The notes beneath the pieces were generated by a model. It did no database searches. It saw nothing but the letters and a program-made list of their open reading frames with translations, and had not been told where the DNA came from. Source: Phycisphaerales bacterium Planc_01 (GTDB lineage: Bacteria > Planctomycetota > Phycisphaerae > Sedimentisphaerales > Anaerobacaceae). Taken from it: DNA of 64,000 bases. Within the stretch, counting starts at the first letter, position 1. Every line of letters starts with the position of its first letter. Positions 94-34,407 of the stretch are shown one piece after another. The stretch covers positions 394,829 to 458,828 of the forward strand of contig LVBB01000016.1 of the NCBI GenBank assembly GCA_001603075.1. Direction: 5' to 3'. The position numbers and the translations under genes are program-made.

Positions 94-918
94 TCATTGC
101 ACCGGCTTGCCGTAGACATCCACCTCGATGTAGTGGTTCAGATCGTTGCTCGTATTGCCGTTGCTGTAGAGCCGAACGTAACGGCCTTTGGGAGTGCCGT
201 GCGAGACGCAATCGATCAACTCGCCTTCGGACGTCTCGGTGTAGTGCATGTCCGTGCCGATGCCCAGGCCGGACGAATTGTCGTGGTCGTTGTTGAACAC
301 GGTCTTGACGTCGGTGATGAAGTCCTTGTCGTTGGAAATCTGCACGACGACGTCAAAGTACACTCGCGGCTGCTTGTGGTAGTGCCACACCACGATCGCG
401 GCGATCTCGGCCTCCTGCTCGAGGTCGACCTGCACCCATTGCAGGAACGGCCCCAGTTCGACGTAGCTGCCGTCTGCGGCCTCCTTGTCGCCGTCGGTAA
501 TCATCTCGATGTCACCGATGATGGGCTCTTCATCGCTGGCCGAGACCGGCTTGTTCAGCGAAAGGAGCTTGGCGCCGACCGGCGCCAGGAACGGCGGACG
601 GGCCTTGCCGGTGGGCTTCCTGAGGTTGGGCACGCGCGTATCCTGCGGCGTCCCGACGAACATCGGCTTGGGCAGCTTGATGTCGAGCGGCGCCATCTCG
701 GCCCCGGCGGAAACCGCTTCTTTGACCTCTGTGACGACTTCCTTGACTTCTTCCTTCGCCGCGTCGGCCAACTTCGCCGCCGTCGAAGGCTCCTGGGTGC
801 TGGCGGGCGCCGGAGCGGCCGACTGTGACGGCGCCGGCTCGGGCTCCTGCGCCTTCTTACACGACGGGCCGAAGCACAGAGCCACAGCGAGCAACGCCAG
901 ACAGATCAACTTTGCCAT
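94..918 (-). CDS. Secreted lipoprotein with discoidin (F5/8 type C)-like domain
   Basis: A 274-residue exported protein. The N-terminus has a lipoprotein-type signal (hydrophobic run ending CFGPSCKK), followed by a Pro/Ala/Glu-rich linker to about residue 85. The C-terminal half (about 130-270) reads as a galactose-binding/discoidin-like beta-sandwich, with WVQVDLEQEAEIAAIVVWHY and the closing GRYVRLYSNGNT typical of F5/8C modules, so it probably binds carbohydrate at the cell surface. I chose the ATG at 918 because an AGAGGA element precedes it; an ATG eight codons upstream (942) is possible. A TTGACA-17-TAGCAT promoter lies about 120 nt upstream, so it is probably transcribed alone. No catalytic residues are apparent. 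Confidence 0.75.
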   Translation of the reverse strand: MAKLICLALLAVALCFGPSCKKAQEPEPAPSQSAAPAPASTQEPSTAAKLADAAKEEVKEVVTEVKEAVSAGAEMAPLDIKLPKPMFVGTPQDTRVPNLRKPTGKARPPFLAPVGAKLLSLNKPVSASDEEPIIGDIEMITDGDKEAADGSYVELGPFLQWVQVDLEQEAEIAAIVVWHYHKQPRVYFDVVVQISNDKDFITDVKTVFNNDHDNSSGLGIGTDMHYTETSEGELIDCVSHGTPKGRYVRLYSNGNTSNDLNHYIEVDVYGKPVQ

Positions 919-1034
919 CGAACCTGCATTCCTCTTTCCCATTTCCTTGACCTCAATAAGTGCAGAACCTCATATCCGTACTTCGCCGATTCGGCCCACG
1001 CCACTCACGCCGGCCCCAACGATAGAGAACAGGT

Positions 1035-1228: not shown

Positions 1229-2614
1229 CTATTTCGCTTCGGCGCCCGGCATCGCCACCACGGGCGGCTGAAGCCCGGCCTTGGCCAATACGAAATAGAT
1301 GACCGCACCCACGATGAAGGCCACCAGCGGCGCGGCCGGAATGTTGGCCAGTCCGACCAGCGGTGCGATGCCCACGATGAAACCGACGGCCCACGAGATC
1401 CAGCCGGCCTGGTTCCAGCCCTTGCGAGGACCGGCCCATTTCTTGCCGGCCAGCAGATAATCCACCATCATCGCGCCGCAGATCGGACCGAACGAGGCAC
1501 CGATGACTGTGAACACCGCTCCAGCCTGTCCGGCCCAACCGGTCACGGCGAGAAGAACACTGACCGCTGCGCCAATCCCGACCGAGATCGAGGGATTGAC
1601 CTTGGGCAGAGTCGTCTTGAAGCTGTTGGCCGCAATGAACGATGAGAAGCAGGCGGACGGGAAGGCGGCAATAGCCAGCAGGAGGCCCATGACCTTTCCC
1701 GCGCCGGGAGAGCCCATCACATTGCCCATGAACCCACCGTCGGCAGGATTCACGGCGTATTGGCCTGTAAGCCCGAATGCTCCTGCCGCGATCAGGAGTG
1801 CGGCGCCGGCCGAAACGATCGTCGCAATCGCGATACCGAAGAGCCCGCCCATCTGAACGTCCTTCCCGTCGATGCTGTTGGTTCCAAAATCCACACCGGC
1901 GGCACCGGCTGTAGCAAAGAAACCGACCACAAACGTGATGGACAACGCAATGACGCCCAGGAAGCTCAGCCCCGGCGTTCCAATCGCCTCAGGAGCGGTA
2001 CCGGCCGCAACGAACGCTGCCGCATCAAAGTCACCCACGCCCCCGATCGTCTTGACCAACAAAATCAACAGAATCGCAATGGGAATCACGGGCAGAAACG
2101 TGGCAACCTTTGCCACATACTGAATCCCTTTGAGACCGACGAAAGCCGCCACCACTGCCCACAGAACAGCAATGATCTTCTGTGCAGCCGGATTGTTGTT
2201 GAACATCGGAGACAACGCCATTGACGAGAAATAGGCGTTGACACCGAGCCAGCCGAACTGGAGAACACCCATAAGGAAGCCGGGCATGAGAAAACCGCCC
2301 TGGGTCCCATACGTTGAGCTGCCGACAACATAAAGAGGCAAGCCGGTCTTCATGCCCAACATGCCCGGAACCAAATAGAACAGGAAGTGGCAGAGCAGCG
2401 CCGCAATCACAAGTCCGAGAAGGGCCACCCCCACCCCTTGGGCGAGGGTTCCGCCCGGCGCACCGCCGCCGCCACTGGGCGCCTGGCTCCAGAAGACGAA
2501 CCACAGGAAGATCCCGGCGTAGGTCGGCGCAGTGTTCTTGTACCACGGGGCCCGGTTCGTAGGCGGGTTGGCCTTGGCCATGCTCAGATAGTCTGGTAGT
2601 ACTCCGTTGCTCAT
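1229..2614 (-). CDS. NCS1-family permease (purine/cytosine-type transporter)
   Basis: A 461-residue inner-membrane protein with about 12 hydrophobic segments. The N-terminus (RAPWYKNTAPTYAGIFLWF) and the Gly-rich first helix are like nucleobase:cation symporter-1 transporters such as CodB. Family knowledge predicts cation-coupled uptake of a nucleobase, hydantoin, allantoin or vitamin-like compound; the substrate cannot be read from sequence. The ATG has a strong AGGAG site eight to nine bases upstream (TTTAGGAGAGCCGATC). It is monocistronic in appearance: 293 nt separate it from the cytochrome b gene, and a strong terminator follows. Nothing in the neighbouring sugar locus obviously supplies or consumes a nucleobase, so its link to the cluster is unclear. 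Confidence 0.8.
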   Translation of the reverse strand: MSNGVLPDYLSMAKANPPTNRAPWYKNTAPTYAGIFLWFVFWSQAPSGGGGAPGGTLAQGVGVALLGLVIAALLCHFLFYLVPGMLGMKTGLPLYVVGSSTYGTQGGFLMPGFLMGVLQFGWLGVNAYFSSMALSPMFNNNPAAQKIIAVLWAVVAAFVGLKGIQYVAKVATFLPVIPIAILLILLVKTIGGVGDFDAAAFVAAGTAPEAIGTPGLSFLGVIALSITFVVGFFATAGAAGVDFGTNSIDGKDVQMGGLFGIAIATIVSAGAALLIAAGAFGLTGQYAVNPADGGFMGNVMGSPGAGKVMGLLLAIAAFPSACFSSFIAANSFKTTLPKVNPSISVGIGAAVSVLLAVTGWAGQAGAVFTVIGASFGPICGAMMVDYLLAGKKWAGPRKGWNQAGWISWAVGFIVGIAPLVGLANIPAAPLVAFIVGAVIYFVLAKAGLQPPVVAMPGAEAK

Positions 2615-2907: not shown

Positions 2908-3567
2908 TCACTGCGCGAATCGGACCCGAACGGCCAGATACGTATGAACGATCACCGCAACGAAAAACGCAATGCTCGTCCACCGATGAATCGCCAAGGC
3001 CAATTCCTGATAGTATGTCCCAAACAGCGGAAACATGCTCAGCACGATCGAAAGGATCAGGGGCAACGCCAGGACGACGATCGCCCAGAACGCCGCCTTC
3101 TGCGCGGTCGAGGCACAGCGGCAGGCCTCTTCAGGGGCCGGGACATGCAACCGCGTAACGCGGCGAAGAAGCCGCTGCACACACGGGCAGTCGCCCACGA
3201 CGAAACGGTAGCGACTGGCCCAGGTGATCGCCAGAACCGCCAGGCAGAAGGCGAAGATCGGGGCAAACGTCGCGTGCACCATCATGAGATAGCCGGAGAT
3301 GTGCTCGTCCCCTCGCACGAGAAGCGGCCAGAAGCCCGTGAATGCCAGGACCAAAAAGCACACCACGGCCAGAAGGTAGCACAGCTTCTTCAGCGCACCC
3401 AACAGGCTGTTGCGCTGCTCGATCAGCAGAAGGCTGAAGGCGTGGACAAGGCCACGGACAAAGCCGGAGCCGCCCCGACATTCGGGACCGGCAGGAAAGG
3501 CGAACCAGTGGATGACGACGCCGATGAAGGTGGCCAACACGATGAAGATGGATATGGTCTGAAACAT
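2908..3567 (-). CDS. Cytochrome b-like integral membrane protein
   Basis: A 219-residue protein with about five transmembrane segments (roughly 3-22, 57-80, 93-118, 158-182, 190-212). His residues sit in or next to several helices (H20, H43, H88, H98, and the pairs in ALAIHRW and AVIVHTYLAV), the pattern of a di-heme b-type cytochrome of the b561/NapI-like class. A Cys-rich cytoplasmic or periplasmic loop (GDCPCVQ, EEACRCAS) is unusual. It starts 24 nt after the heptaheme cytochrome c gene and must be co-transcribed with it; together they look like a quinone-linked electron-transfer module. The heme-ligand assignment is by inspection only. Confidence 0.65.
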   Translation of the reverse strand: MFQTISIFIVLATFIGVVIHWFAFPAGPECRGGSGFVRGLVHAFSLLLIEQRNSLLGALKKLCYLLAVVCFLVLAFTGFWPLLVRGDEHISGYLMMVHATFAPIFAFCLAVLAITWASRYRFVVGDCPCVQRLLRRVTRLHVPAPEEACRCASTAQKAAFWAIVVLALPLILSIVLSMFPLFGTYYQELALAIHRWTSIAFFVAVIVHTYLAVRVRFAQ

Positions 3568-3591: not shown

Positions 3592-5496
3592 CTATTCGTC
3601 TTCGGCCAGAACTCTGGCAACGGCGCCCAGCGCCTTGAGCCCATACAGTAGCAGCACGATGCCCAGGACCGCCGATGCTCCCAGCGCAATCACCTTGAAC
3701 CATGGGCGGAACACGAACGACGCCGAGAACGCCCACGCGTAGAACGGGCTGATGTCCTGGAAGCCGACCATCTGTCGGGTCGCCGGCACGTCTGAGGCGA
3801 TCGGACTGTCGACTGCAACCTTGCCGAAGAAGAACGGCGAGTCGGTCGCATGACAGTCGGTGCAGTAGCGAATGCCCAGCGACTGAGCCGCGGGGCGTAC
3901 GGTGTGCGCCAGGGGCCACATGTACGGCTTCGCCACAGGGTGATCGGCTTCTTCCTCGACCTCGCCGGCCTCGTTCAACGAATACAACGCTCCACCGGCC
4001 ACGTAGACCGCATTGGCATCGGCCGCTTGCGAAAGGGACTTGAGGGCCGCAGCGATCTGTTCCGTGGAAATGCCCGGCCAGGTCCCGCTCGAGGGGATCT
4101 CCAGCTTGTCGAATTGAGCTTTGATGGCCCTTTCGACAACATCCAGCGCGATCGGCGTCACTTTGTCGTCGGCGCGAGTGCCCCAGTAGGCCGGCCATAT
4201 TACTTTGTGCGGCGAGATTTTGTCGCCGTCGTGGGCGAAGACAGGCGAGAGGATATGCGGCACCATCTCCTCCGACTTGTTCACATTGGGCGTACCCAGC
4301 CGGTGGGCGCGCGAGGTCTTCGTGAAGACGGCTTGTTCGCCCGGCCAAGGCCCGGAGTGGCACGCCGTGCAACTCAGCCGTTCGAAGTGCACCGGAGGCA
4401 ACCCCACGTGCTGAGGCACCGGAGCGCCCAGACGACCCGCATCCGGCACATTCGGCCCGGCAGGAAGATGACACCCCTGGCACGTCGTCGTTGCCGCGAG
4501 TCGGCTGTCCGAGATCTCCTCTTCGCCCGGGTAGCCGCGGATGATCTCGTGATGGATATCATTGCGATGGCAATCGACGCATGTCAGGCCGGCCTTGAGA
4601 TGAACGTCCTCCTCGGACGACCACTTCTCGGTCTTCTCATCGGTGCCGCTGAAATATACGTCGGAATGGCAGTAGTAGCACCGCGCGTTCGGGACCTCCC
4701 GCACGATGTCGAACAGCACCTGATGATCGGAATCGAACGCACCGTCGCGATACTCCACGCGGGGTTCCTTGTCGCCGCCCTCCGGCATGAACGGATCGTA
4801 GGCCACGCCCATGTCCGCGGCGGAACCTTTCACGGAAGCAAACTCACACGAAGCGGCCGCCGCCCAGCGGTTGTTCTGCCTGACCGCGATCTGGACCGCC
4901 CAGCCGCTGACGCCTCCCATGTCCTGGCCGTAGTGTCCGTTGTGACAGGCCAGGCAATTGATCTCGAGTTTGCCGGAGATATACTGCCGGCCAACGTCGG
5001 CGTCGTCGGTCGCCTTGACTTCCCCCGGTCCGCCGCCGGGCATGTGCCGACCGAACAGCCTCGTGAACGCGAACTCCGAGAGCCCGAACTCGCGAGGCTG
5101 AATCGTCCCGGCCCACGAACGGTACGAAAGCGGGACCTGGATCCCCAGCTTCGGGTCCACGTAGATCCACGGCTCTCCGGGCCGGCCGGGCGGCACCGTC
5201 TCATCCATCGCGTTGAAGTGCCAGCCGCGCCGGATCACGTCGTAACTGTGACACTCGCCGCAGGTGTACTTGGTGGAGAAGGGCAGGAGCGGGTCCGCAT
5301 CGGGCGTGACTTGCGCGCCCTTGTCGCCATCCTCGTCCTCCGCAAACAGCGGGATCAGATGGGTCGGGTGCGCTCGGCTGCCGTCACTCTCATCCCCCAA
5401 CAAGCCCTTCGCTGCCTCCTGCGATTCCTGCGCGGACGCCATCGCCAAAGACAACACCGGCAACAGAACGACGGCTAAGATCAGTCTGCTTCTCAA
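3592..5496 (-). CDS. Membrane-anchored heptaheme cytochrome c
   Basis: A periplasmic electron-transfer protein of about 634 residues. It has a signal peptide, seven CXXCH heme-binding motifs in order (CGECH, CLACH, CYYCH, CVDCH, CQGCH, CTACH, CTDCH), and one C-terminal transmembrane helix (WFKVIALGASAVLGIVLLLY) ending in a short cytoplasmic tail. Many extra His residues could act as distal ligands. I prefer the TTG at 5496, which gives a clean signal peptide (RSRLILAVVLLPVLSLAMASA) after AAAGGA. The ATG at 5565 would place a hairpin inside the coding region and only 6 nt after the previous stop. The gene follows a TAT oxidoreductase gene and precedes the cytochrome b gene, so the three are probably one operon. 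Family and redox partner are not identifiable. Confidence 0.8.
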   Translation of the reverse strand: MRSRLILAVVLLPVLSLAMASAQESQEAAKGLLGDESDGSRAHPTHLIPLFAEDEDGDKGAQVTPDADPLLPFSTKYTCGECHSYDVIRRGWHFNAMDETVPPGRPGEPWIYVDPKLGIQVPLSYRSWAGTIQPREFGLSEFAFTRLFGRHMPGGGPGEVKATDDADVGRQYISGKLEINCLACHNGHYGQDMGGVSGWAVQIAVRQNNRWAAAASCEFASVKGSAADMGVAYDPFMPEGGDKEPRVEYRDGAFDSDHQVLFDIVREVPNARCYYCHSDVYFSGTDEKTEKWSSEEDVHLKAGLTCVDCHRNDIHHEIIRGYPGEEEISDSRLAATTTCQGCHLPAGPNVPDAGRLGAPVPQHVGLPPVHFERLSCTACHSGPWPGEQAVFTKTSRAHRLGTPNVNKSEEMVPHILSPVFAHDGDKISPHKVIWPAYWGTRADDKVTPIALDVVERAIKAQFDKLEIPSSGTWPGISTEQIAAALKSLSQAADANAVYVAGGALYSLNEAGEVEEEADHPVAKPYMWPLAHTVRPAAQSLGIRYCTDCHATDSPFFFGKVAVDSPIASDVPATRQMVGFQDISPFYAWAFSASFVFRPWFKVIALGASAVLGIVLLLYGLKALGAVARVLAEDE

Positions 5497-5527
5497 GGCT
5501 ATCCCAAATCCTTTCTTGAGAGATGAC

Positions 5528-5548
5528 CGGGCACCTTGCGGGTGCCCG
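5528..5548. terminator. Intergenic hairpin between oxidoreductase and cytochrome c genes
   Basis: CGGGCACC, a 5-nt loop and GGTGCCCG form a perfect 8-bp stem that extends by five more pairs across one mismatch. It lies between the stop at 5571 and the proposed TTG start at 5496. There is no U-run, so it may be an mRNA processing or stability element, not a full terminator. Confidence 0.45.
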
Positions 5549-5570
5549 ATCATCGCCCGAAACACTCGAT

Positions 5571-6923
5571 CTATACGTGGAACTCGTCCTTGCCGAATTC
5601 GAGTCGGCGTCCGGCCTCGACCGCCTCGTTGACCTTGAGCACCATCACTGCCGTCTCGTAGCCGATTTCGGCCGGGCAGTTGAGCTTCTCTTTGCCGCGC
5701 ATGGCGTTGAAGAAGTTCTCCAGGTGCGGCTGATGGTACGGTTTGCCGTCCATGGTGATCGGAATCTCGTAGGCCGGCGGCGCGAGGGTCTCACGGACGT
5801 CCAGGACCGCCTCGCCTTCCGGCTTGGCCTCTTCCTTCTTCGGCTCTTTGACGAAACCGAGTTTGACCCACTTGTCCCATTCCGGAGCCGTCGCCTCGCG
5901 GTAGACCGAACCCCGGCTGGCCGACTCGGAGATTTGCAGCGTGCCCTGGTCGCCCATGAACGTCTCGAAGTAGCCCTGCGAGCTGTTCGTGGTCAGGACT
6001 TGATAGAAGCCCCGTACGACGCCGGCCTTCGTCTCGAACTCATAGATGGCCATGACCGTGTCATACCACTCATGGGTCTTGGCGTCGTAGTAGTCGGTCC
6101 CGCCGCTGGCGATGACCGAACGTGGGGTCGCATCGAGGAACCAACTGTAGATGTCGATCTGATGGGAGCCCAGATCGACGATCGGACCGCCGCCCAGTTT
6201 CCTGTACCAGCGCCAGTTGCGGAACTGCTCCATGCTTTCGAAACCATGCTTGCCCAAGACGTCGGCGGGAATCACCATCTTCTCAGGGTACCCAAGCGGG
6301 GGCTGAGCGCCGCGATTCCATTGCCCGTTGATCGTGGTCATCCGCCCGAGGATGTTGGCCTGCTTGATCAGCTTGTCGTAGCAGTGGATATACCGCGGAT
6401 TGCTGCGACGCTGGTGGCCGATCTGCAGGAGCTTTCCGGTCCGCTTCTGCGCCTCGACCATCTGCTTGGCCTTGGCCAGTTCGTTGGACATCTCCTTCTC
6501 GCAGTAGACGTCGAGTCCGGCCTCCATGCAGGCAATGGCGTGCTCGGCATGCCAGAAGTCGGGTGTCGCGACGATCACCGCGTCGATCTTGCCCTTCTCC
6601 TTGTCGAGCATCTCCTTGTAGTCCACGTAGGTGTTGTTCTGGTGGCCATAGCGAGCGAGCGTTCGCGAGACGCGCTTGAGGTTGTACTCCTCCCAGATGT
6701 CACAGACCGCCTTGAACCGCACGCCCGGGATCGTCCGAGCGGCGTCCATCAGGATCTGTCCCTGGGAGCCCGCCCCCAACAGGGCCACGTTGATATCGTC
6801 CGGCTTCGCGCCGCCGGCCTGGGCAAAAACGCGGGGAGCCATCGCCAACCCGGCCCCTACGGCCGCCGTGGACCGCAGGAAGCTGCGTCGATCCATCCCT
6901 TTTTCGTTCGTCTGGTCGCTCAT
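5571..6923 (-). CDS. TAT-exported Gfo/Idh/MocA oxidoreductase (EKE variant)
   Basis: A 450-residue secreted NAD(P)-dependent dehydrogenase homologue. The N-terminus carries a TAT signal (MDRRSFLRS, then an Ala-rich run ending VFAQAGG). The Rossmann glycine motif is LLGAGSQG, followed by AVCDIWEEYN, ATPDFWHAEH and the catalytic-lysine motif CEKEMSNEL. Lys is kept, but the usual EKP proline is Glu. The C-terminal domain has GGGPIVDLGSHQIDIYSW. It differs from the tandem array to its right, lacking their WWDFGTG block, and so forms a separate subgroup; GH109-like glycosidase activity is an alternative. A near-consensus promoter lies about 70 nt upstream, and the heptaheme cytochrome follows. Confidence 0.85.
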   Translation of the reverse strand: MSDQTNEKGMDRRSFLRSTAAVGAGLAMAPRVFAQAGGAKPDDINVALLGAGSQGQILMDAARTIPGVRFKAVCDIWEEYNLKRVSRTLARYGHQNNTYVDYKEMLDKEKGKIDAVIVATPDFWHAEHAIACMEAGLDVYCEKEMSNELAKAKQMVEAQKRTGKLLQIGHQRRSNPRYIHCYDKLIKQANILGRMTTINGQWNRGAQPPLGYPEKMVIPADVLGKHGFESMEQFRNWRWYRKLGGGPIVDLGSHQIDIYSWFLDATPRSVIASGGTDYYDAKTHEWYDTVMAIYEFETKAGVVRGFYQVLTTNSSQGYFETFMGDQGTLQISESASRGSVYREATAPEWDKWVKLGFVKEPKKEEAKPEGEAVLDVRETLAPPAYEIPITMDGKPYHQPHLENFFNAMRGKEKLNCPAEIGYETAVMVLKVNEAVEAGRRLEFGKDEFHV

Positions 6924-7096: not shown

Positions 7097-9253
7097 TCAC
7101 TCCAGCAAGGGTTTCACAATGATATTGCGATAGGCCACCGGACCATGGTTGCCCTGGAACATCAGCGGTCCCACGGGTGATTCCTTGCCCGTCAGCCCCC
7201 CCGGTGTCTGCTGGGGCATGATAAGGTTCTTGTGCAGCAACTGGCCGTTGAGCTCGACTTTCACGAACTCGGCGTTCTGGGTCTTCCTGCCATCGGCGTC
7301 GAATCGCGGAGCACGGAACTCGATGACATACTGCTGCCACTCGCCCGGCTTCTTGCAGGCGTTGACCGGCGGGGCAAAGCCGCCGTAAATAGCGCCCATG
7401 TCCCCACTGCCCATTCGCATCTTGCCGTAGCTGTCCAGCACCTGGACTTCGTACTCGCCCATCACATAGATGCCCGAGTTGGACCCCTGAGGCACCATCA
7501 CCTCCAGTTCGATCCGGCAGTCACCGAATTTCGCCTTCGAGTAAATGTCCTGGCTCTCGCCGTGCTTGGGCGCCAGGTTGATCAGCTCGCCGACCCCTTC
7601 AACCTGCTCCAACTGCTTCGGGTCGCTCGCAGCGACTTTGGCCCTTCCGGCCGTCCACAGGTTCGCCTTGCCCGAGCCGGTGCTTGTCGCCCAGCCGTCG
7701 AGGTCGTTGCCGTTGAAAACCAACTGCGCGTCGCCGTAGGCAGGACACAGGCGTTGGACGCGGATGTCCTTGAAGTCCACGATCATCGGCGGGCCGGCGT
7801 GAAGCTGCAGCGCCAGCAGCCCCTTCCGCGAGGCACCCTTGCGGTCCTGCGGGTCGCCCGGCGCGGTCAGCCGGTCATTGTCGATCAACTCCATCGTCTG
7901 GTAACCGTTGAGGAAATGCTGGAGGTGGTTGCCCTGGCAGATGATGTCGTACTCGTTCCAGTCCTTGTCCTTGTAGTAGCCCTCCTGGACGAGCTGCTTC
8001 TGGTCATTGACGCGGCCGCGAACGACCTTCTCGCCGTTTCCATCGATCACCATCAGATCGCCCACGTTGACCAGCCAGGCGCGGCCGCCCTCGTCGTACA
8101 AGAAGCCGACCGTGCCGGGATTGTTCTCCACCTCGGCCTGATACCCGCTGATCCGCCACTTGGCGAACTCCTTGCTGCGGTACTGCACGCCGGAGTTGCC
8201 GCTGAGGATGCGAAACTTCAGGTTCAGGTGGAAATCGCCGAACGCGCCGCCGCGATAGACCAAAAACGTGTTGCCCCGAGCGGGGTTCTCGGGCGTCGTC
8301 TCGCCTCGGATGAAGCCGTCCTTAACCGACCACAGTTGGGGTTCGCCGTCCCAGGCGCCGAGGTTCTTGCCGTCGAACAGATACTCCCACGTGCTGACAG
8401 CCAGATCGGAGGCCGTCCGATGGAACCAATCCACACAGCCGGCGATCTCCGGCAGGCTGTTGTCCCAGTTGTGCTCATACTCGATGGAGAAGACCCCGTC
8501 GAACTTCTGCCAGGCCAGTTCGGCCAGCACCGCGCCGACTTTGCTCTTGCCCGTGCCCCAGATCACATCGTGGGCACCTTTGTTGCCGAACTCGTTGAGG
8601 TCTTTGAAGTGCAGACTGCGAATCCTCCCGGCCCGGCCCAGTTTCTTGACCGCTTCGACCGGATCGATTCCCGAACGGGTCCAGTGCCCGGTGTCGGCGC
8701 AGGCGCCGATCCATTTGCTGCGGCCCTCGCAAACCCTCATCACGGTGTCGGGGTTCCAGTAGTAAGAGGGCTCCGGGTGGTTGTGGATCGCCACGCCGAT
8801 CTTGTACTCCTGGCAGAGCCGATCGATCAACGGGATGGCATCCTCGGGCGGCTCGGAGACGATCGTCTCGATACCCATGTCGCGAGCGAAGTTGAACACC
8901 TTGCGACATTCCTCCTCGTTGTTCGGCAGGCCCACCACGCCGTAGTTGACCAGCCTGATCCCCTGCTCATTGAGCATCTGCTTGACCTGAAGCCGCAGTG
9001 CGGCCGACATGTTGTGGTCCAGTCTGGCGTCACCGTCTTCCTGGCTGAGCTTCTGGCCGGGATAGGCTTCGATGTAACCCAGGCCGACCGACTTCGTCTT
9101 GGCCACCGCCTCATAGAACGTGAACCGATTGAAGCTATACGCCTGTGTCCCCAGGCGCCATTGGTCTTTCGCCTCGGCGCCGGTGACGGCAACACCGCAG
9201 ATACAAATCCCCGTCACTGCCAGAACGACCACTGTCTTCATCCATTTGTTCAT
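7097..9253 (-). CDS. Secreted TIM-barrel isomerase/lyase fused to two DUF1080 domains
   Basis: A 718-residue exported three-domain protein. Residues 1-30 are a signal peptide. Residues about 32-285 form a xylose-isomerase/AP-endonuclease-like TIM barrel with candidate metal ligands in IHNHPEPSYY, ACADTGHW, LHFKDLNEFG and FSIEYEHN. Two DUF1080 (PF06439) jelly rolls follow, at about 290-505 (begins YLFDGKNLGAWDG) and 515-718 (begins LVFNGNDLDGWATS; core NSGIYVMGEYEVQVLDSYG). DUF1080 proteins are known to act as 3-keto-glycoside hydrolases or hydratases, and TIM barrels of this type as their partner lyases. Here both activities would sit on one chain. ATG 9253 is chosen because AGGAG lies 8 nt upstream. 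Confidence 0.85.
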   Translation of the reverse strand: MNKWMKTVVVLAVTGICICGVAVTGAEAKDQWRLGTQAYSFNRFTFYEAVAKTKSVGLGYIEAYPGQKLSQEDGDARLDHNMSAALRLQVKQMLNEQGIRLVNYGVVGLPNNEEECRKVFNFARDMGIETIVSEPPEDAIPLIDRLCQEYKIGVAIHNHPEPSYYWNPDTVMRVCEGRSKWIGACADTGHWTRSGIDPVEAVKKLGRAGRIRSLHFKDLNEFGNKGAHDVIWGTGKSKVGAVLAELAWQKFDGVFSIEYEHNWDNSLPEIAGCVDWFHRTASDLAVSTWEYLFDGKNLGAWDGEPQLWSVKDGFIRGETTPENPARGNTFLVYRGGAFGDFHLNLKFRILSGNSGVQYRSKEFAKWRISGYQAEVENNPGTVGFLYDEGGRAWLVNVGDLMVIDGNGEKVVRGRVNDQKQLVQEGYYKDKDWNEYDIICQGNHLQHFLNGYQTMELIDNDRLTAPGDPQDRKGASRKGLLALQLHAGPPMIVDFKDIRVQRLCPAYGDAQLVFNGNDLDGWATSTGSGKANLWTAGRAKVAASDPKQLEQVEGVGELINLAPKHGESQDIYSKAKFGDCRIELEVMVPQGSNSGIYVMGEYEVQVLDSYGKMRMGSGDMGAIYGGFAPPVNACKKPGEWQQYVIEFRAPRFDADGRKTQNAEFVKVELNGQLLHKNLIMPQQTPGGLTGKESPVGPLMFQGNHGPVAYRNIIVKPLLE

Positions 9254-9317
9254 CTGGAATTCTCCTGAACGCAAAACCCCTGTCGCACCACGATTGTGAG
9301 ATCCCCTGTCGCCTTCG

Positions 9318-10640
9318 CTACAGGGTCCATCCCTGGCGATACCGCCGGCGCAGATGCTCGTTCACTTCCGGCATGTTCGTGACCTTCATCGCCGCGCTGT
9401 CCCACTCGATCTTCCGACCGGCCTTGGCAGCGATGTTGCCCAGCAGGATGGCCTCGGTCAGAGGACCGGCATAGTCGAAATTCGACAGGGGCTTGGGCCC
9501 GCCCTTGCACGCCTCGACCCATTCGAGGTAGTGGCCGCTGTCCCCCTGCTTGAACCGCCGAATCCACGGATCGGGCGTCTTGATCCCGCGCATCTTCGAG
9601 TACGGAATCAACTCCGGCCGGCTGCCGTGCGGCAGCAGGAGTGTCCCCTTGTCGCCGTAATACAGACCGCCCTGATCGGGCAGGTTGCGCCCCTCTTCCA
9701 GATCCTCCGGGCGCGGTGGCCGATTGTCCCCGTCGAACCATCGCACCGTCACCGCCGGACGGTCGCCGCGGGCCGGGAATTCCCACGTGATGATCGTCTT
9801 GGTCGGGTACGTTTCATCACTGAACGGCCCAGGTTGCGCTTCAATGCTCGTCGGCGCATCGAGATCGAGGGCCCACCACGCCGGGTCGATGATGTGGCAT
9901 CCCATGTCGCCGAGCGTCCCGGTGCCGAAGTCCCACCAGCGCCGCCAGTTTCCGGGAAGATAGGTCGGGTGATACGGCCGATAGGGGGCCGGTCCGAGCC
10001 AGAGGTCCCAATCGAGTGTCTCGGGCACAGGCGGCGTGTCGGTCGGACGCGTGCCGCCGCCCCAGTTCTTGCCGCTCCAGAGGTCCACCTTATGCACCTT
10101 GCCGATCAGACCCGACTGGATCATCTCGACCATCGTCTTCATTTCCGTCGTCGCGTGAAGCTGAGTCCCCATCTGCGTCACGACGCCGTACTGCCGGGCC
10201 GCCATCGTCAGACGACGCACCTCGTACACGTTGTGACAGAGCGGCTTCTGGCAGTAGACGTGCTTGCCCCGCTGCATGGCCGCCATCGAGGCGACCGCGT
10301 GGATATGATCCGGCGTCGAAACGCTCACGGCGTCGATGTTCTTGTCCTCGGCGTCGAGCATCTTACGGAAGTCGCGATACTTCTTGGCATCGGGGAACCT
10401 CTCAAACGTGCCGGCTGCATGCCGCCAGTCCACGTCGCACAGCGCAACGATGTTCTCGCCGGCAAACTGGCCGACGTCGCTGGCCCCCATGCCGCCAACA
10501 CCGATACAGGCGATGTTGAGCTTCTCGCTGGGCGCGACGTGGTTCGGCCCGCCGAGAACGTGACGCGGAACCACGGTGAACGCCGCAACTGCCGCCGCAC
10601 CCCCGAGAAACCGCCGTCTGGTAATTCGTCCATCTTTCAT
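9318..10640 (-). CDS. TAT-exported Gfo/Idh/MocA oxidoreductase, array member 1
   Basis: A 440-residue protein with TAT signal ITRRRFLGGAAAVAAF. The Rossmann motif is CIGVGGMGAS, followed by ALCDVDW and STPDHIHA. The catalytic-lysine motif is CQKPL (Gln replaces the usual Glu; Lys is kept). The C-terminal domain carries the array's signature DWDLWLGPAP, WWDFGTGTLGDMGCH and a closing RQGWTL. Predicted role is periplasmic oxidation of a sugar hydroxyl with bound NAD(P). It starts 44 nt after the next upstream gene's stop and ends 64 nt before the TIM-DUF1080 fusion, which suggests co-transcription. The stop codon lies inside a small hairpin (CCCTGT/ACAGGG). Confidence 0.87.
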   Translation of the reverse strand: MKDGRITRRRFLGGAAAVAAFTVVPRHVLGGPNHVAPSEKLNIACIGVGGMGASDVGQFAGENIVALCDVDWRHAAGTFERFPDAKKYRDFRKMLDAEDKNIDAVSVSTPDHIHAVASMAAMQRGKHVYCQKPLCHNVYEVRRLTMAARQYGVVTQMGTQLHATTEMKTMVEMIQSGLIGKVHKVDLWSGKNWGGGTRPTDTPPVPETLDWDLWLGPAPYRPYHPTYLPGNWRRWWDFGTGTLGDMGCHIIDPAWWALDLDAPTSIEAQPGPFSDETYPTKTIITWEFPARGDRPAVTVRWFDGDNRPPRPEDLEEGRNLPDQGGLYYGDKGTLLLPHGSRPELIPYSKMRGIKTPDPWIRRFKQGDSGHYLEWVEACKGGPKPLSNFDYAGPLTEAILLGNIAAKAGRKIEWDSAAMKVTNMPEVNEHLRRRYRQGWTL

Positions 10641-10683: not shown

Positions 10684-12036
10684 TTACAGCGTCCAGCCTT
10701 CACGATATTCCTTGGTCAAATACTTGTTCGCCTCGGGGACGTTGGTGAACTCGAACTTGCTGGCGTCCCAGAGCAGCTTCGTTCCCAGATACTTGTCCTG
10801 CTTCAGCTCCGAGCGCAGGGCGATGTTGCCCATCAGCACCACCTGCGCGAGCAAACCGGCGTGGTCCGGGAAGTTCGAGCCGGCGGGCTTGCCGCCCTTG
10901 CACGCCTGAATCCACTCGACGTAATGGCCGGGCGAACGCTCCAGCTTCTGCGGCGGCTTGCCGTAGTCTTTCTGCCGAGACTCCGGCAACAGGCGGCCGC
11001 CATACAGCTTGCCCTTCTCGCCGATGTAGAGCGCGCCGTTGGTGTCCCAGCGACGGCCATCCTCCAGCTCGTTCGGCCGAGGCGGCTTCATTCCGCCGTC
11101 GTACCAGTGCAGCGTCACCGGGGCCAGGTCACCGCGGGCGGGGAACTCGTACGTCACACGGGAGGCGACCGGGTAGGTCTCATCGTTGACGAGAGTGCAG
11201 CAGGCCTCCACGCTCGTGGGATATCCCAGCTTCAGGGCGCGGAACACCGGATCGATGCTGTGGCAGCCGATGTCGCCGAGCGCTCCGGTGCCGAAATCCC
11301 ACCAGCCGCGCCAGACGAACGGATGATACACCCTTGGCACGTACGGGCGCATCGGGGCCGGACCGATCAGGAGGTCCCAGTTGAGCGTCTCGGGGACGGA
11401 ATCGTTGCCCTGCGGCCGGTCCACACCTTGCGGCCAGTACCACTTGTTGGTCCCGTTCAGAGGCCGATCCGTCCAGACGTGCACCTCGCGCACCTGGCCA
11501 ATGGCCCCGTCCCAGATCGTTTCGCACAGCAGACGGGTCTGCTCCGAGGCCTGGCCCTGGTTGCCCATCTGCGTGGCGACACCCGCCTGGCGGGCGGCTT
11601 CGGCCAGCATCCTGGCTTCCAGAACGGTGTGGGTCAGCGGCTTCTCGCAGTACACGTGCTTGCCCCGCTTGATCGCCGCCAGCGAGACCGGCGCGTGCAT
11701 GTGATCCGGGGTCCCCACAACCACCGCGTCGATGTTCTTGCCCTCCTTGTCGAGCATTTCGCGGAAGTCGTAGTACTTCCTGGCGTCGGGATAGCGTCGG
11801 AACGTCCCGGCTGCATGCCGCCAATCCACGTCGCACAATGCGACGATGTTCTCGCTCTCCATGTTCCTCAGATCGCTGGCGCCCTGTCCACCGATACCGA
11901 CCCCTGCGATATTGAGCTTCTCGCTGGGAGGGGTGTTGTTCGGCCCGCCCAGCACGTGACGCGGAACCACCGTGAACGCCCCAATGGCCGCTGCGGCACC
12001 CATGAAATCACGCCGAGATAATGCCTTGTCTTTCAC
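10684..12036 (-). CDS. TAT-exported Gfo/Idh/MocA oxidoreductase, array member 2
   Basis: A 450-residue protein. A GTG start at 12036 is preferred: GAGGAG lies 7 nt upstream, and the ATG at 12051 overlaps that site. The TAT signal is LSRRDFMGAAAAIGAF, the cofactor motif GVGIGGQGAS, then ALCDVDW, GTPDHMHA, CEKPLTHTV. The C-terminal half has NWDLLIGPAP, WWDFGTGALGDIGCH and the end REGWTL. The sequence is closely related to members 1, 3 and 4 across its whole length, indicating expansion by duplication. Substrate unknown; the family context suggests a sugar or cyclitol. Confidence 0.87.
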   Translation of the reverse strand: MKDKALSRRDFMGAAAAIGAFTVVPRHVLGGPNNTPPSEKLNIAGVGIGGQGASDLRNMESENIVALCDVDWRHAAGTFRRYPDARKYYDFREMLDKEGKNIDAVVVGTPDHMHAPVSLAAIKRGKHVYCEKPLTHTVLEARMLAEAARQAGVATQMGNQGQASEQTRLLCETIWDGAIGQVREVHVWTDRPLNGTNKWYWPQGVDRPQGNDSVPETLNWDLLIGPAPMRPYVPRVYHPFVWRGWWDFGTGALGDIGCHSIDPVFRALKLGYPTSVEACCTLVNDETYPVASRVTYEFPARGDLAPVTLHWYDGGMKPPRPNELEDGRRWDTNGALYIGEKGKLYGGRLLPESRQKDYGKPPQKLERSPGHYVEWIQACKGGKPAGSNFPDHAGLLAQVVLMGNIALRSELKQDKYLGTKLLWDASKFEFTNVPEANKYLTKEYREGWTL

Positions 12037-12079
12037 AATAATACTCCTCATTCTGATGATTGCGCCATGGACGATTCTG

Positions 12080-13450
12080 TTACAGCAGCCATCCGTCGCG
12101 GTATTCGTCGCGGATGTACCTGTTGGCCTCCGGCAAATTGGTGATCTTCATGTTCGGGCCGTCGCAGTGGAGTTTGAGCCCTTTCTCGTACAACTGCCTT
12201 TCCATTCGCAGGGCGATATTTCCGTAGAGAACCACTTCGGTCAGCGGTCCCGCCCAATCGAAATTCGCTCGCGCCGCCGGCCCCCCTTTGCACGCGATCA
12301 GCCACTCCTTGTGGTGGCCGGGCGAACGCTCGATCCGCTGCGGCGGCTTGCCATACTCTTTCATCCGCGCCTCCGGGATCAGGCGATAGCCCAGCATCTT
12401 ACCCTTGTCACCCACGAAAAGATTGTCGTCGGCCTCACCGAACTTGCGTCCTTCCTCCAGCTCCACCGGCCGCTCGGGCATCATGCCGCCGTCGTACCAG
12501 GTCAGCGTCAAAGCAGGCATTTCCTGCCGGGCCGGGAACTGGAAACGGACGATCGACGCCTTCGGGGCAGTTTCCTCTTTCACGCCGGCTCCCTCATCCA
12601 TATTGCTGGAGCAGGCCTCCACTGTCGTCGGATACCCGAGCTTGAGCGCGCGGAAGACCGGATCAAGCTGATGGCAGCCGATGTCGCCGAGCACGCCCGT
12701 TCCAAAGTCCCACCAGCCGCGCCAACTGAACGGCAGATAGCATGGGTGGTAGGGCCGCGATCTGGCCGGGCCAAGCCACAGGTCCCAATCCAGTGTCGCC
12801 GGTACGGGCGGCGTGTCACTCGGCCGGCCGATCCCGCGGGGCGAGATGGGCCGGTTGCACCACGCGTGGACCTCGCGGACCGGGCCGATCGCACCGTCCC
12901 AGAGGATCTCCGAAACGAGCCGATTGCTCTCCGTCGCCTGGCCCTGGTTGCCGAGCTGCGTGGCGACCTTGGCCTCGCGGGCCGCCTCGGCAAGCTGTCG
13001 GCACTCCCAGATCGAGTGCGCCAGTGGCTTCTCGCAGTAGACGTGCTTGCCGCGTTTGATGGCGGCCATCGCGATCACGGCGTGGGTGTGGTCCGGGGTG
13101 GCAATCACGACCGCATCGATGTCCTTCTGCTCGTCGAGCATCTTGCGGAAGTCGCGCCACTTGCGGGCCCTGGGGTACTTCGCGAACACCCTGCCCGCGT
13201 AGGCGTCGTCCACATCGCACAGCGCAGCGATGTTCTCGCTGCCGACCTCGTCGAGGTCCCCCTCGCCCCGGCCGCCGATGCCGATGCCGGCGATGTTGAG
13301 CTTCTCACTGGGCGGCACGTAGCCCGCCCCCCCCAATACGCGACGCGGCACAATGGTAAACGCCGCCACGGCCGCCATCTCCTGCATGAACCGCCGCCGC
13401 GACGGCCGATCCATCGCCCCGTCCTGCCTTCCTTCGCTGTCCGCTCTCAT
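12080..13450 (-). CDS. TAT-exported Gfo/Idh/MocA oxidoreductase, array member 3
   Basis: A protein of about 456 residues with TAT signal PSRRRFMQEMAAVAAF. Motifs in order are GIGIGGRGEGD, ALCDVDDAYA, ATPDHTHAVI, CEKPLAHSI, DWDLWLGPA, WWDFGTGVLGDIGCH and a C-terminal RDGWLL. The start is uncertain: the ATG at 13450 gives a 30-residue lead before the twin arginines, an ATG at 13414 would place them near the N-terminus, and one at 13477 is also in frame. It has a roughly ten-residue insert (EGAGVKEETAP) in the C-terminal domain compared with member 2. Confidence 0.85.
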   Translation of the reverse strand: MRADSEGRQDGAMDRPSRRRFMQEMAAVAAFTIVPRRVLGGAGYVPPSEKLNIAGIGIGGRGEGDLDEVGSENIAALCDVDDAYAGRVFAKYPRARKWRDFRKMLDEQKDIDAVVIATPDHTHAVIAMAAIKRGKHVYCEKPLAHSIWECRQLAEAAREAKVATQLGNQGQATESNRLVSEILWDGAIGPVREVHAWCNRPISPRGIGRPSDTPPVPATLDWDLWLGPARSRPYHPCYLPFSWRGWWDFGTGVLGDIGCHQLDPVFRALKLGYPTTVEACSSNMDEGAGVKEETAPKASIVRFQFPARQEMPALTLTWYDGGMMPERPVELEEGRKFGEADDNLFVGDKGKMLGYRLIPEARMKEYGKPPQRIERSPGHHKEWLIACKGGPAARANFDWAGPLTEVVLYGNIALRMERQLYEKGLKLHCDGPNMKITNLPEANRYIRDEYRDGWLL

Positions 13451-13526
13451 GATCCTGGCCCCACCTTGCTGGTTCATTGGACTTCCCGGCCAAACGAACA
13501 ATCAATCATCAATAATCCACAATCAA

Positions 13527-14957
13527 TCAGAGAGTCCATCCGTCGCGATACGCCCGCTGCATGTACGCGTTGGCCTCGGGCAGATTCGTCACCTTCATGC
13601 TCGCGCCGTCGTAGGCGAGCCTGAGCCCTTTGGCCTGCAGTTCGAGGCTCATGCGCACCGCGACGTTGCCCAGCAGGACCATCTCCGTCAATGGACCGGC
13701 GTAGTCGAAATGCGAGCCGGCCGGTCGGCCTCCCTTGCAGGCCTCGATCCATTCTTTGTGATGGCCGACCGAGCGCGGGATCGTCTTGTCGGGCCGCTGA
13801 TACGCTCGCATCTTCGATTCGGGAATCAGACGGGGGTTGTTGCCGTAGCTGCCGCACATGATCTTGCCCTTCTCACCCACGAAGATCACACCGCCCAGCT
13901 TGTCCCCCATCGACCTGCCGTCCTCGAGCTCCCTGGGACGCGGCGGCATCAGGCCCCCGTCATACCAGGTCAAATCCAGCCCCGGCATGCCTTCACGCTC
14001 GGGGAATTCGTATCGCACGATGGAAGCCTGCGGATAGCTTTCCGTATTGAACGGTTTGTCCCAGGTGATCGTCGGAACGAAGATCGAGCAGCTCGCTTCC
14101 ACACTCGTCGGGGCATCAAGCTTCAAGGCCCAGAAGACCGGATCGAGATTATGACATCCCATGTCGCCCAGTCCGCCGGTGCCGAAATCCCACCAGCCTC
14201 GCCACAGCGCGGGCACGTAGGCGGAATGATACGCCCGCCACGGAGCCGGGCCCAGCCACAGGTCCCAGTCCAGCGTTTTGGGAACCGGCGGGGTCTCTTG
14301 GGGCCGCTGGAGCCCTTGCGGCCAGACGGCGTGCGTCGTCCATGCGTGTACTTCGCGGACCGGCCCGATTGCACCATCCCAAATCCACTCGCAGATCAGG
14401 CGAATGCCTTCGCCCGCGTGGCCTTGATTGCCCATCTGTGTGGCGACGCCCGCCTCGCGCGCGGCCTTCGCGATTGCGCGCGCCTCGTGCATCGAATGTG
14501 TCAGAGGCTTCTCACAGTAGACATGCTTGCCCATCTGGATCGCCGTCATCGTGGCGACGGCATGGGTATGATCCGGCGTGGCGACGATAACCGCGTCAAT
14601 GTGCTTGTCTTCCTTCTCAAGCATGACCCGGAAGTCGGAGTACGCGCCGGCCTTCGGGTGACGCTTGAATGTCTCGGCGGCATGAGCGTGATCCACGTCG
14701 CACAGGGCGACGATGTTCTCGCTGCTGACATTCTGCATGTCGCCGGCGCCCTGGCCCCCAACACCGATGCCGGCGATGTTGAGCTTCTCGCTTGGGGGAA
14801 CATGGCCCGCTCCGCCGAGCACGTGACGAGGGACGATCGTCCATGCCGTAAGACTCGCCGCCGCTCCGAGCACTCGGCGGCGGGACAGCTTCGGCCTCCC
14901 CTCGAAGGCTTTGTGTCCATCGAGACATCTGCGGCCGATTGTCGTGGCCCTTCGCAC
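13527..14957 (-). CDS. TAT-exported Gfo/Idh/MocA oxidoreductase, array member 4
   Basis: A 476-residue protein. The frame stays open far upstream, but a GTG at 14957 with AAGGAG seven bases before it is the evident start; upstream codons overlap the neighbouring gene and its terminator. Motifs are LSRRRVLGAAASLTAW (TAT), GIGVGGQGAGD, ALCDVDHAHA, ATPDHTHAVA, CEKPLTHSM, DWDLWLGPAPW, WWDFGTGGLGDMGCH and RDGWTL at the end. TAT twin arginines are followed by Arg-Val, where the others have Arg/Asp-Phe, so export efficiency may differ. Its Shine-Dalgarno lies directly behind the U-run of the preceding terminator, so read-through could control its expression. Confidence 0.85.
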   Translation of the reverse strand: MRRATTIGRRCLDGHKAFEGRPKLSRRRVLGAAASLTAWTIVPRHVLGGAGHVPPSEKLNIAGIGVGGQGAGDMQNVSSENIVALCDVDHAHAAETFKRHPKAGAYSDFRVMLEKEDKHIDAVIVATPDHTHAVATMTAIQMGKHVYCEKPLTHSMHEARAIAKAAREAGVATQMGNQGHAGEGIRLICEWIWDGAIGPVREVHAWTTHAVWPQGLQRPQETPPVPKTLDWDLWLGPAPWRAYHSAYVPALWRGWWDFGTGGLGDMGCHNLDPVFWALKLDAPTSVEASCSIFVPTITWDKPFNTESYPQASIVRYEFPEREGMPGLDLTWYDGGLMPPRPRELEDGRSMGDKLGGVIFVGEKGKIMCGSYGNNPRLIPESKMRAYQRPDKTIPRSVGHHKEWIEACKGGRPAGSHFDYAGPLTEMVLLGNVAVRMSLELQAKGLRLAYDGASMKVTNLPEANAYMQRAYRDGWTL

Positions 14958-14969
14958 GAGCGATCTCCT

Positions 14970-15008
14970 TGAAAACGGCCCCTGCGCCGGCTGCGGTGCA
15001 GGGGCCGT
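14970..15008 (-). terminator. Terminator between array members 5 and 4
   Basis: ACGGCCCCTGC and GCAGGGGCCGT form a perfect 11-bp stem (14975-15008). On the minus strand it is followed at once by TTTTC. It follows the stop of the gene at 15034 by 26 nt and breaks the oxidoreductase array into transcriptional units. Confidence 0.75.
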
Positions 15009-15033
15009 ATCTTGCTGCGAATCGACTGCCCGC

Positions 15034-16440
<1,407 letters not shown>

Positions 16441-16459
16441 GGAACACCTCGTGTTTCTA

Positions 16460-16496
16460 CAAAGGTGCTGCACGTCGGTGTCAACGTGCAGCACCT
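16460..16496 (-). terminator. Terminator-like hairpin between array members 6 and 5
   Basis: AGGTGCTGCACGT and ACGTGCAGCACCT form a perfect 13-bp stem with an 8-nt loop (16463-16496), 27 nt after the stop at 16524. On the minus strand it is followed by TTTG, a short U-run. Confidence 0.7.
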
Positions 16497-16523
16497 GTTA
16501 TGACAGAACGTGTGTCGAGGCAG

Positions 16524-17897
16524 TTAGACCTTCATCTCCAACGGACCCCAACCCGCGCGGGGCTCGCGCCAGGCCAGGTCGTTGATAGCCGGGTCGCTGG
16601 TGATCTCGCCTGCTTCGTTGAGCTCGAGCTTCTTGCCCGCACGGGCACAGAGGTTGCCGAGTTGAATGTTGGCGGTCATCGGACCGGAATAGGCAAAATT
16701 CGACTGGCTGAACTCACGCGGCTTCTCGCCCCGGCAGGCCATGAAGAACTCCTTGTGATGGCCGGGAGAGCGTTCGAGCAGTTGCGGCGGGCGGCCGAAC
16801 TCCTTGCGCCGGGCCTCGGGAATAATCAACGGGGTTTCCCAGTAATCGCCGTTGACCAGCATCTTGCCCTTGGAGCCGATGATCAGGTTGCCGGTTCTCG
16901 GCAGTTGGCGTCCATCGACTTCGAGTTCCTCGGGGGTATCCGGCATGAAGGGCTTGCCGTTCCCGTCATTGCCCTCGTACCAGAAGGTCTTGAACCCGGG
17001 CCGGCCGTCTTTGGCGCGGTAGGTGTTCTTGACCACCATACCAGCGGGCCACTGGTCCTTGACGGGCCCGGTCATGATGAACGGCTCAGCGGTGGCGGCG
17101 TAGCCCGGATTCATGATCGAGTAGATCCCGTCGGTCGTGTGGCAGGCCATGTCGCCCAACGCGCCGGAGCCGAAATCGACAAAGCCGCGCCAATTGAACG
17201 AGTGGTAGACGCCCTTCTTGTAGGGACGCATCGCCGCCGGGCCAATCCAGGCCTCCCAGTCCAGCGTATCAGGGATCGGATCGGCCCCTTCCGGACGGTC
17301 ACCGCCCTGGGGCCAGACCGGCCGATTCGTCCAGGTGTGGAACTCCTTGACGTCGCCGACGGCACCGGCCTTGATGTACTCGTATGCCAGCCGCCACCCG
17401 TTCCCGGCATGGCCCTGGTTGCCCTGCTGCGTGACAACCTTGGGATTCCTGGCATAGGCGGCCGCCAGAAGCTGCGCCTCGCGAACCGACCAGGTCAGCG
17501 GCTTCTCCGTGTAGCAGTGAATGCCCATGGAGACAGCGGTCATCGTCGGCGCGAAATGACTGTGGTCCGGCGTCGCCACGAACACCACGTCGAGATTCTT
17601 TCCGTGGTTCTCGAAGACCTTGCGCCAATCCGTGTAGCCCTTCGCCTGTCCCCAGCCTTCCTTCTCCAACACCCCGCCCCACCGGGTCTTGTCGGTTTCG
17701 GCAAAGGCGATGCATTGACAGCCTTCTCCATGGGCGGCGCCGGTATGCGACCCCGCCTGCCCGCCTACGGCAATGAACCCCACCTGGAGCTTTTCATTGA
17801 GCCCCTGGGCCCGGATGAGGCTCGGGAAACCGATCGCAGATACCGCTCCGAATGCGGCCGTGCGTTTGACAAACTGACGACGTGTGATGTTCGACAT
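16524..17897 (-). CDS. TAT-exported Gfo/Idh/MocA oxidoreductase, array member 6 (duplicate copy A)
   Basis: A 457-residue protein with TAT signal ITRRQFVKRTAAFGAV, ending LIRAQG. Motifs: FIAVGGQAGSH, AFAETDKTRW, ATPDHSHFAP, YTEKPLTWSV, DWEAWIGPAAM, NWRGFVDFGSGALGDMACH and the C-terminus EPRAGWGPLEMKV. It forms a distinct subgroup with its right-hand neighbour, to which it is roughly 92-93% identical by eye; differences concentrate between residues 45 and 245, and the C-terminal 200 residues are almost unchanged. The ATG has AAGGAG eight bases upstream, and the 15 nt before the start are also shared with copy B. Confidence 0.87.
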   Translation of the reverse strand: MSNITRRQFVKRTAAFGAVSAIGFPSLIRAQGLNEKLQVGFIAVGGQAGSHTGAAHGEGCQCIAFAETDKTRWGGVLEKEGWGQAKGYTDWRKVFENHGKNLDVVFVATPDHSHFAPTMTAVSMGIHCYTEKPLTWSVREAQLLAAAYARNPKVVTQQGNQGHAGNGWRLAYEYIKAGAVGDVKEFHTWTNRPVWPQGGDRPEGADPIPDTLDWEAWIGPAAMRPYKKGVYHSFNWRGFVDFGSGALGDMACHTTDGIYSIMNPGYAATAEPFIMTGPVKDQWPAGMVVKNTYRAKDGRPGFKTFWYEGNDGNGKPFMPDTPEELEVDGRQLPRTGNLIIGSKGKMLVNGDYWETPLIIPEARRKEFGRPPQLLERSPGHHKEFFMACRGEKPREFSQSNFAYSGPMTANIQLGNLCARAGKKLELNEAGEITSDPAINDLAWREPRAGWGPLEMKV

Positions 17898-17961
17898 GAG
17901 CTTGGCTCCTTAACTCACAGTAAATGAAAGAATCGACCTTCCGCTACGTTTCGTGATTCAC

Positions 17962-19338: not shown

Positions 19339-19384
19339 GAGCTTGGCTCCTTCACTTCGGGTGAATAACAGATCGATGTCTAAG

Positions 19385-25375: not shown

Positions 25376-25427
25376 ACACGTTGCTCCTCACTCTCGCCGC
25401 AGAATGCGGCGGACTCCACGCCTTGGA

Positions 25428-26723: not shown

Positions 26724-26922
26724 CGAACTGCCCTCGTCTTTCGGTGAACCCTGCGGACGTTGCCGGCACCATGCCGCGCCGGTCCGTATGAATGTGACAC
26801 TGGATCGGCAGGATCGCTTCGGTCTCGGGCTGGAAACAAATGCGGTGCCGTAACCACCCTCCCGACGGATTGGCGCCATACCCCACCGCGCCGGATGCTC
26901 ATGCTGCTTCTCCTGCAACCGT

Positions 26923-34250: not shown

Positions 34251-34311
34251 GGTGGCGCTCCTTTCATTTCCAGCGGCTGTGCGGCCCAGTACCTCCCGGC
34301 CGCAAGAAAGG

Positions 34312-34340
34312 ATTCTAACCCACCGATCCACCTTCAGCAA
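34312..34340 (-). promoter_or_regulatory. Promoter for the DUF6807-DUF1080 gene
   Basis: On the minus strand TTGCTG is followed after 17 nt by TAGAAT (3/6 and 5/6), 62 nt before the start at 34250. Confidence 0.5.
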
Positions 34341-34407
34341 GGGCGACACGACACCGAATGCGTGGGGCAAGATCTCTCTGGCGAAAGTCGGGGAACGCGG
34401 GAGCAGA

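Follow-up and report, generated by a model that had tools for sequence, protein, structure and literature searches.

The window analyzed here (the whole stretch of DNA, 64,000 nucleotides) carries, on the minus strand at 7097..9253, a gene for a protein of 718 aa in which a signal peptide (approximately residues 1-28; 9170..9253), a TIM barrel (residues 30-284; 8402..9166) and two DUF1080 domains, termed D1 (residues 288-499; 7757..8392) and D2 (residues 505-717; 7103..7741), follow one another, all on that same strand. Pfam search of the full protein matched PF01261 (AP_endonuc_2, xylose isomerase-like TIM barrel) at residues 51-263 with 55.6 bits (cut-off 31.1) and PF06439 (3-keto-disaccharide hydrolase, DUF1080) in two stretches with 239.8 bits (cut-off 26.8; best at 288-499), and a genome-level search placed each PF06439 copy above the latter cut-off by itself (127.4 and 119.6 bits); the domain order put forward in the original prediction is thereby borne out, and its coordinates were right, the gene being on the minus strand. 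An NCBIfam search of the same protein returned IolE and CbiR only, both below cut-off. The N-terminal ~28 residues are read as a Sec signal peptide by inspection of the sequence, and model confidence there is low (pLDDT < 50 for residues 1-28). A plus-strand ORF at 7232-9268 was considered and rejected as an antisense shadow, as the GC3 signal (0.84 for the minus frame of 7097-9253), the Pfam matches and the conservation all fall on the minus frame.

Downstream, and likewise on the minus strand, lie genes for a Gfo/Idh/MocA oxidoreductase with a Tat signal, here called GfoA (5571..6923), and for four syntenic products: a multihaem cytochrome c with seven CXXCH motifs (3592..5565), a cytochrome b561-type membrane protein (2908..3567), a multi-pass membrane protein that has no Pfam match and looks permease-like by inspection (1229..2614), and an F5/8 type C (discoidin-like) protein (94..942). 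GfoA, as the downstream neighbor, then the cytochrome c and the cytochrome b561 are found in that order in 13 of the 14 loci with enough flank (the window, L010, L013-L022 and L025, with L011 as the exception), be it loci with the fused gene or those in which it is split into two adjacent genes (see below), which suggests that electrons from glycoside oxidation may be able to leave to the respiratory chain. The L025 contig, labelled as Bacteroidetes, encodes a barrel-DUF1080 protein, GfoA, the multihaem cytochrome c, the cytochrome b561 and a discoidin-like gene, and either inter-phylum transfer or a mislabelled bin would explain its presence there.

The upstream neighbor, in fused and split loci, is a second Gfo/Idh/MocA gene with a twin-arginine leader, Gfo2 (9318..10640, minus), beyond which seven further minus-strand genes of this family with Tat-like leaders span 10684..20767 (10684-12051, 12080-13501, ~13527-15000 with an uncertain start, 15034-16494, 16524-17897, 17962-19422 and 19385-20767), followed by another two at 24098..26918 (24098-25375 and 25428-26918, minus). 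Altogether, 11 Gfo/Idh/MocA domains, most with twin-arginine leaders, are found at 6.4-26.6 kb of the window (genes 5571-26918, ~21 kb), and genome-wide there are 84 matches to this family and 35 to DUF1080. Genes of a C3 oxidoreductase family are thus co-located with lyase and hydratase domains, in an order conserved in relatives, and C3 oxidation by any of the 11 enzymes would be expected from their family. Two adjacent genes of this set (16524-17897 and 17962-19422) are identical in their N-terminal sequence (MSNITRRQFVKRTAAFGAVSAIGFPSLIRAQ), which suggests that they may be a recent tandem duplication. The window also holds a second barrel gene (26972-27970), a ThuA-HEAT protein and an alpha-L-fucosidase, as well as a DUF6807-DUF1080 fusion of 949 aa at 31521-34370.

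As every source of the fused gene is a MAG, misassembly, or a pseudogene in decay, has to be considered. Counting over the genome_contigs set and 298 genomes of the class (with L073 and L079 left out as repeats of L010 and L013), there are 12 distinct fused genes, including that of the window, in planctomycete MAGs (L001, L009-L014 and L074-L078); the others are intact, come from independent assemblies and are 65-94% identical to the window protein. Comparison of the window gene with its two nearest relatives (L009 and L010) yielded dN/dS of ~0.08-0.11 in each domain, and all domains of the fused protein are under purifying selection. With 12 intact genes and a dN/dS of ~0.1, an artefact or pseudogene was rejected, its probability being vanishingly small: the domain fusion is genuine, conserved and assembled from known families. 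Within the class sample, fused genes were confined to the window's own family (8/25 genomes sampled there), and in a phylum sample of 392 genomes no match at E <= 1e-110 was seen outside the window genome, save for one barrel-only protein. Fusions of the barrel to a single DUF1080 domain are common in this order. Searches of an open-access library turned up no described barrel-DUF1080 fusion, an absence that carries little weight as the key 2024 papers lie outside that scope.

The AlphaFold2 model of the fused protein, built from a 92-sequence alignment, has a mean pLDDT of 92.9 and a pTM of 0.88, the barrel and D1 are linked by just a few residues, and the high pTM suggests that the predicted arrangement of the domains may be fixed. 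The closest structure to the modelled barrel is that of BDI_1903 of Parabacteroides distasonis (3p6l; Z 38.1, rmsd 1.2, 44% identity), which differs in being a barrel alone, with no DUF1080 attached. D1-D2 (286-717) matched BT3469 of Bacteroides thetaiotaomicron (4jqt), likewise a tandem of a D1-like N-terminal domain followed by a canonical DUF1080, albeit one without a barrel; its rmsd of 11.9 despite a Z of 25.0 is read as single domains that fit in a differing mutual orientation. For these close homologues (3p6l, 4kw2, 4qhz and 4jqt), which bear structural-genomics titles only, there is to our knowledge no known activity.

For the barrel, there is also a remote relationship: a profile of 30 barrels matches AtOGE (8BVK; E = 2e-11), the Mn2+ O-glycoside beta-eliminase of Agrobacterium tumefaciens, whose metal ligands are H132, D163 and H189 and whose catalytic residue is H134 (PMC10628242), with the barrel-type hydratase 8ro4 being a far weaker match (E = 0.006). 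AtOGE is a free single-domain protein, unlike the one described here, and shares with it the TIM barrel fold and, as counted along the profile alignment, the H-x-H, D and H of its Mn2+ site along with the catalytic His, so that H132, H134, D163 and H189 fall on H157, H159, D187 and H215. These four, as well as E258, are conserved across 77 barrels (H190 and E260 are also listed as conserved in the window protein); the AtOGE alignment ends before E233, its fourth and weak ligand, and E258, which is invariant and lies near the C-terminal barrel strand, is beyond the aligned stretch. Loss of the metal ligands from the barrel, which the original prediction had named, together with loss of the catalytic pocket in both DUF1080 domains, as an argument against an enzymatic relay, has thus not taken place, because all the alignable AtOGE-type metal and catalytic positions are there and conserved.

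The same site weighs on a reading suggested by what relatives are called in Pfam and the PDB ("sugar phosphate isomerase/epimerase" and "putative glycosyl hydrolase"), according to which the barrel would be an unrelated sugar isomerase or epimerase and the DUF1080 domains classical glycosidases of the xanthanase/lichenase type, as THTE_1561 has been described to be an endo-xanthanase/lichenase (PMC9007349). Not only the AtOGE-type site of the barrel, but also the Gfo/Idh/MocA context and the secretion speak against it, the periplasm not being where an isomerase acting on free or phosphorylated sugars would be expected, and we regard this reading as very unlikely.

The two DUF1080 copies had been predicted to be quite different from each other, and so they are: identity between D1 and D2 is 27%, the profile-profile probability is 79%, and the nearest solved structures differ (the N-terminal domain of 4jqt for D1, 4qhz for D2). 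Solved DUF1080 relatives among the structure matches of the model are titled 3-keto-2-hydroxy-glucal hydratase (8tda, 8v31) or 3-keto-glycoside eliminase/hydratase (8rr2, 9fbe), though identity to the characterized enzymes is just ~16-18% over the structural alignment. The BT2157 and AL2 enzymes (3osd, 8tda, 8rr2, 8v31) have the PF06439 fold in common with the domains seen here and differ in being single-domain proteins. Their E-x-Q is kept in D2 as E602-x-Q604, and the candidate counterpart of the His near their C-terminal RN motif is H703, which lies near an FRN motif and is shifted by one residue relative to the QxHG His of the BT2157 type, whereas the motif is swapped in D1 (Q372-x-E374, with H485 as the putative His counterpart), as it is in the 4jqt N-terminal domain; these DUF1080 metal and catalytic residues were assigned by counting along alignments and not from a structure. 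The Bacteroides enzyme reportedly has a Ca2+ site and a preference for alpha anomers (Kastner et al. 2024). The H275N variant of a Bacteroides lyase is hydration-deficient (PMC13273386), and H275 probably is, by the same kind of counting, the QxHG histidine. Separate jobs for D1 and D2 are plausible, given the Q-x-E of the former versus the E-x-Q of the latter and of active relatives.

The departure of D1 from E-x-Q is, at the same time, a point for another reading, in which the barrel alone would catalyze both elimination and hydration, and D1 and D2 would serve as carbohydrate-binding modules that keep the enzyme attached to its substrate. Both LgdB1 and LgdB2, which act in levoglucosan utilization, carry the annotation of a sugar phosphate isomerase, much like the barrel, and LgdB2 eliminates and hydrates (PMC7676230). 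In Thermogutta, moreover, the CBM66 designation of a binding module overlaps with DUF1080 (PMC5673643), a domain that is also attached to others, such as DUF6807. However, D2 is strongly constrained and still has E, Q and His at the conserved places, and lone DUF1080 proteins are catalytic in Bacteroides (8rr2, 8tda; BT2157 in PMC9007349); we regard this reading as rather unlikely. LgdB2 and BT2157 also bear on the premise that in known pathways elimination and hydration reside on separate proteins, which is true only in part because each of these two performs both steps.

It could also be that the barrel and both DUF1080 domains are lyases of differing anomer or linkage preference, making up one enzyme of broad range for alpha- and beta-3-keto-glycosides instead of a two-step relay. 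The Bacteroides protein BT2157 was deposited as an eliminase/hydratase and solved with alpha-3-keto-glucose, AtOGE acts specifically on the beta-glucoside (PMC10628242), the two DUF1080 copies are strongly divergent, and the large number of Gfo/Idh/MocA genes encoded alongside suggests that the substrate range is wide; hydration would, however, still be required somewhere, and this reading strikes us as decidedly unlikely.

Eight relatives (L015-L021 and L023, the second gene of the pair being cut off in L023) have, instead of the fused gene, two adjacent genes, the first for a barrel-DUF1080 protein whose single C-terminal DUF1080 is of another type (X), the second for D1-D2 with its own leader and hence a separate exported protein, unlike in the window. 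These two-gene relatives at the corresponding locus are a new observation. The barrel is the same in barrel-X proteins (L015-L021, which share the locus, L082-L089 and others), and barrel-X on its own is common across the order and was also seen in the Bacteroidetes MAG L025; Hydrogenedentota and Verrucomicrobia have lone barrels. As the split relatives carry barrel-X and a separate D1-D2, the D1-D2 of the fused genes stands where the barrel otherwise has its own X, and the barrel may have lost its C-terminal DUF1080 upon being joined to the adjacent D1-D2 protein.

The fused genes are not monophyletic (AU p = 0.00024 for the concatenated alignment, 0.0006 for the barrel alone and 5.6e-5 for D1 alone), the test on D2 alone being borderline (p = 0.055), so a history in which the fusion arose once, was inherited vertically and never reverted is rejected by all of these except, narrowly, D2, and repeated fusion or recombination is therefore suggested. 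The simplest reading is that at least two fusions took place, by deletions running from the start of X to the homologous start of D1. The junction, nevertheless, does not vary in position among the fused genes; in nearly all of them a Gly follows the last "L" of the barrel, and the residue two positions past the first Trp of D1 is aromatic or Arg, so that one fusion event later spread by recombination is possible as well. L011 looks chimeric, having a fused-type barrel and a D1-D2 near that of the split L015. Other arrangements of these domains were also seen: a reverse-order fusion of 557 aa, DUF1080 preceding the barrel, in the window's own genome (L003, G000:C36, 1291-2961), and three consecutive DUF1080 domains in L085 and at G000:C139:82648-84336.

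Cleavage of glycosides by oxidation, elimination, hydration and reduction is a non-hydrolytic route characterized recently and in few organisms. Since the barrel has AtOGE-type positions and solved DUF1080 relatives are titled as hydratases or eliminase/hydratases, a polypeptide for elimination plus hydration is the natural reading, and we consider it on balance probable that the fused protein is an exported enzyme of this route, acting on 3-keto-glycosides in the periplasm. A neighboring Tat-exported Gfo/Idh/MocA enzyme would oxidize the glycoside at C3, upon which the barrel, with a divalent metal (probably Mn2+) and H159, would eliminate the aglycone from the 3-keto-glycoside to leave a 2-hydroxy-3-keto-glycal. 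The fusion might channel this intermediate, as put forward in the original prediction. A DUF1080 domain would hydrate the glycal to the 3-keto sugar, D2 being the likelier one by virtue of its canonical E-x-Q and His, and that domain might also eliminate the opposite anomer; D1, as a divergent copy, might serve other substrates, or binding and positioning. Finally, another Gfo enzyme would reduce the 3-keto sugar, or the electrons would exit via the multihaem cytochrome and cytochrome b561. A more far-reaching version, which we find quite unlikely as a whole, is that planctomycetes have repeatedly exchanged the own DUF1080 of the eliminating barrel for a fused hydratase pair so that the unstable 3-keto-glycal is handed over, all within a periplasmic locus in which oxidation at C3 is linked to respiration by the multihaem cytochrome c and cytochrome b561 rather than being redox-neutral.

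What the locus offers, in any case, is a planctomycete group that merges two kinds of sugar-cleaving domains, usually separate proteins, into one protein predicted to be exported. The natural fusion, together with its two-gene relatives at the same locus, would allow a direct test: does coupling elimination physically to hydration matter? The conserved cytochrome genes, in turn, raise a testable question of their own: where do the electrons go?
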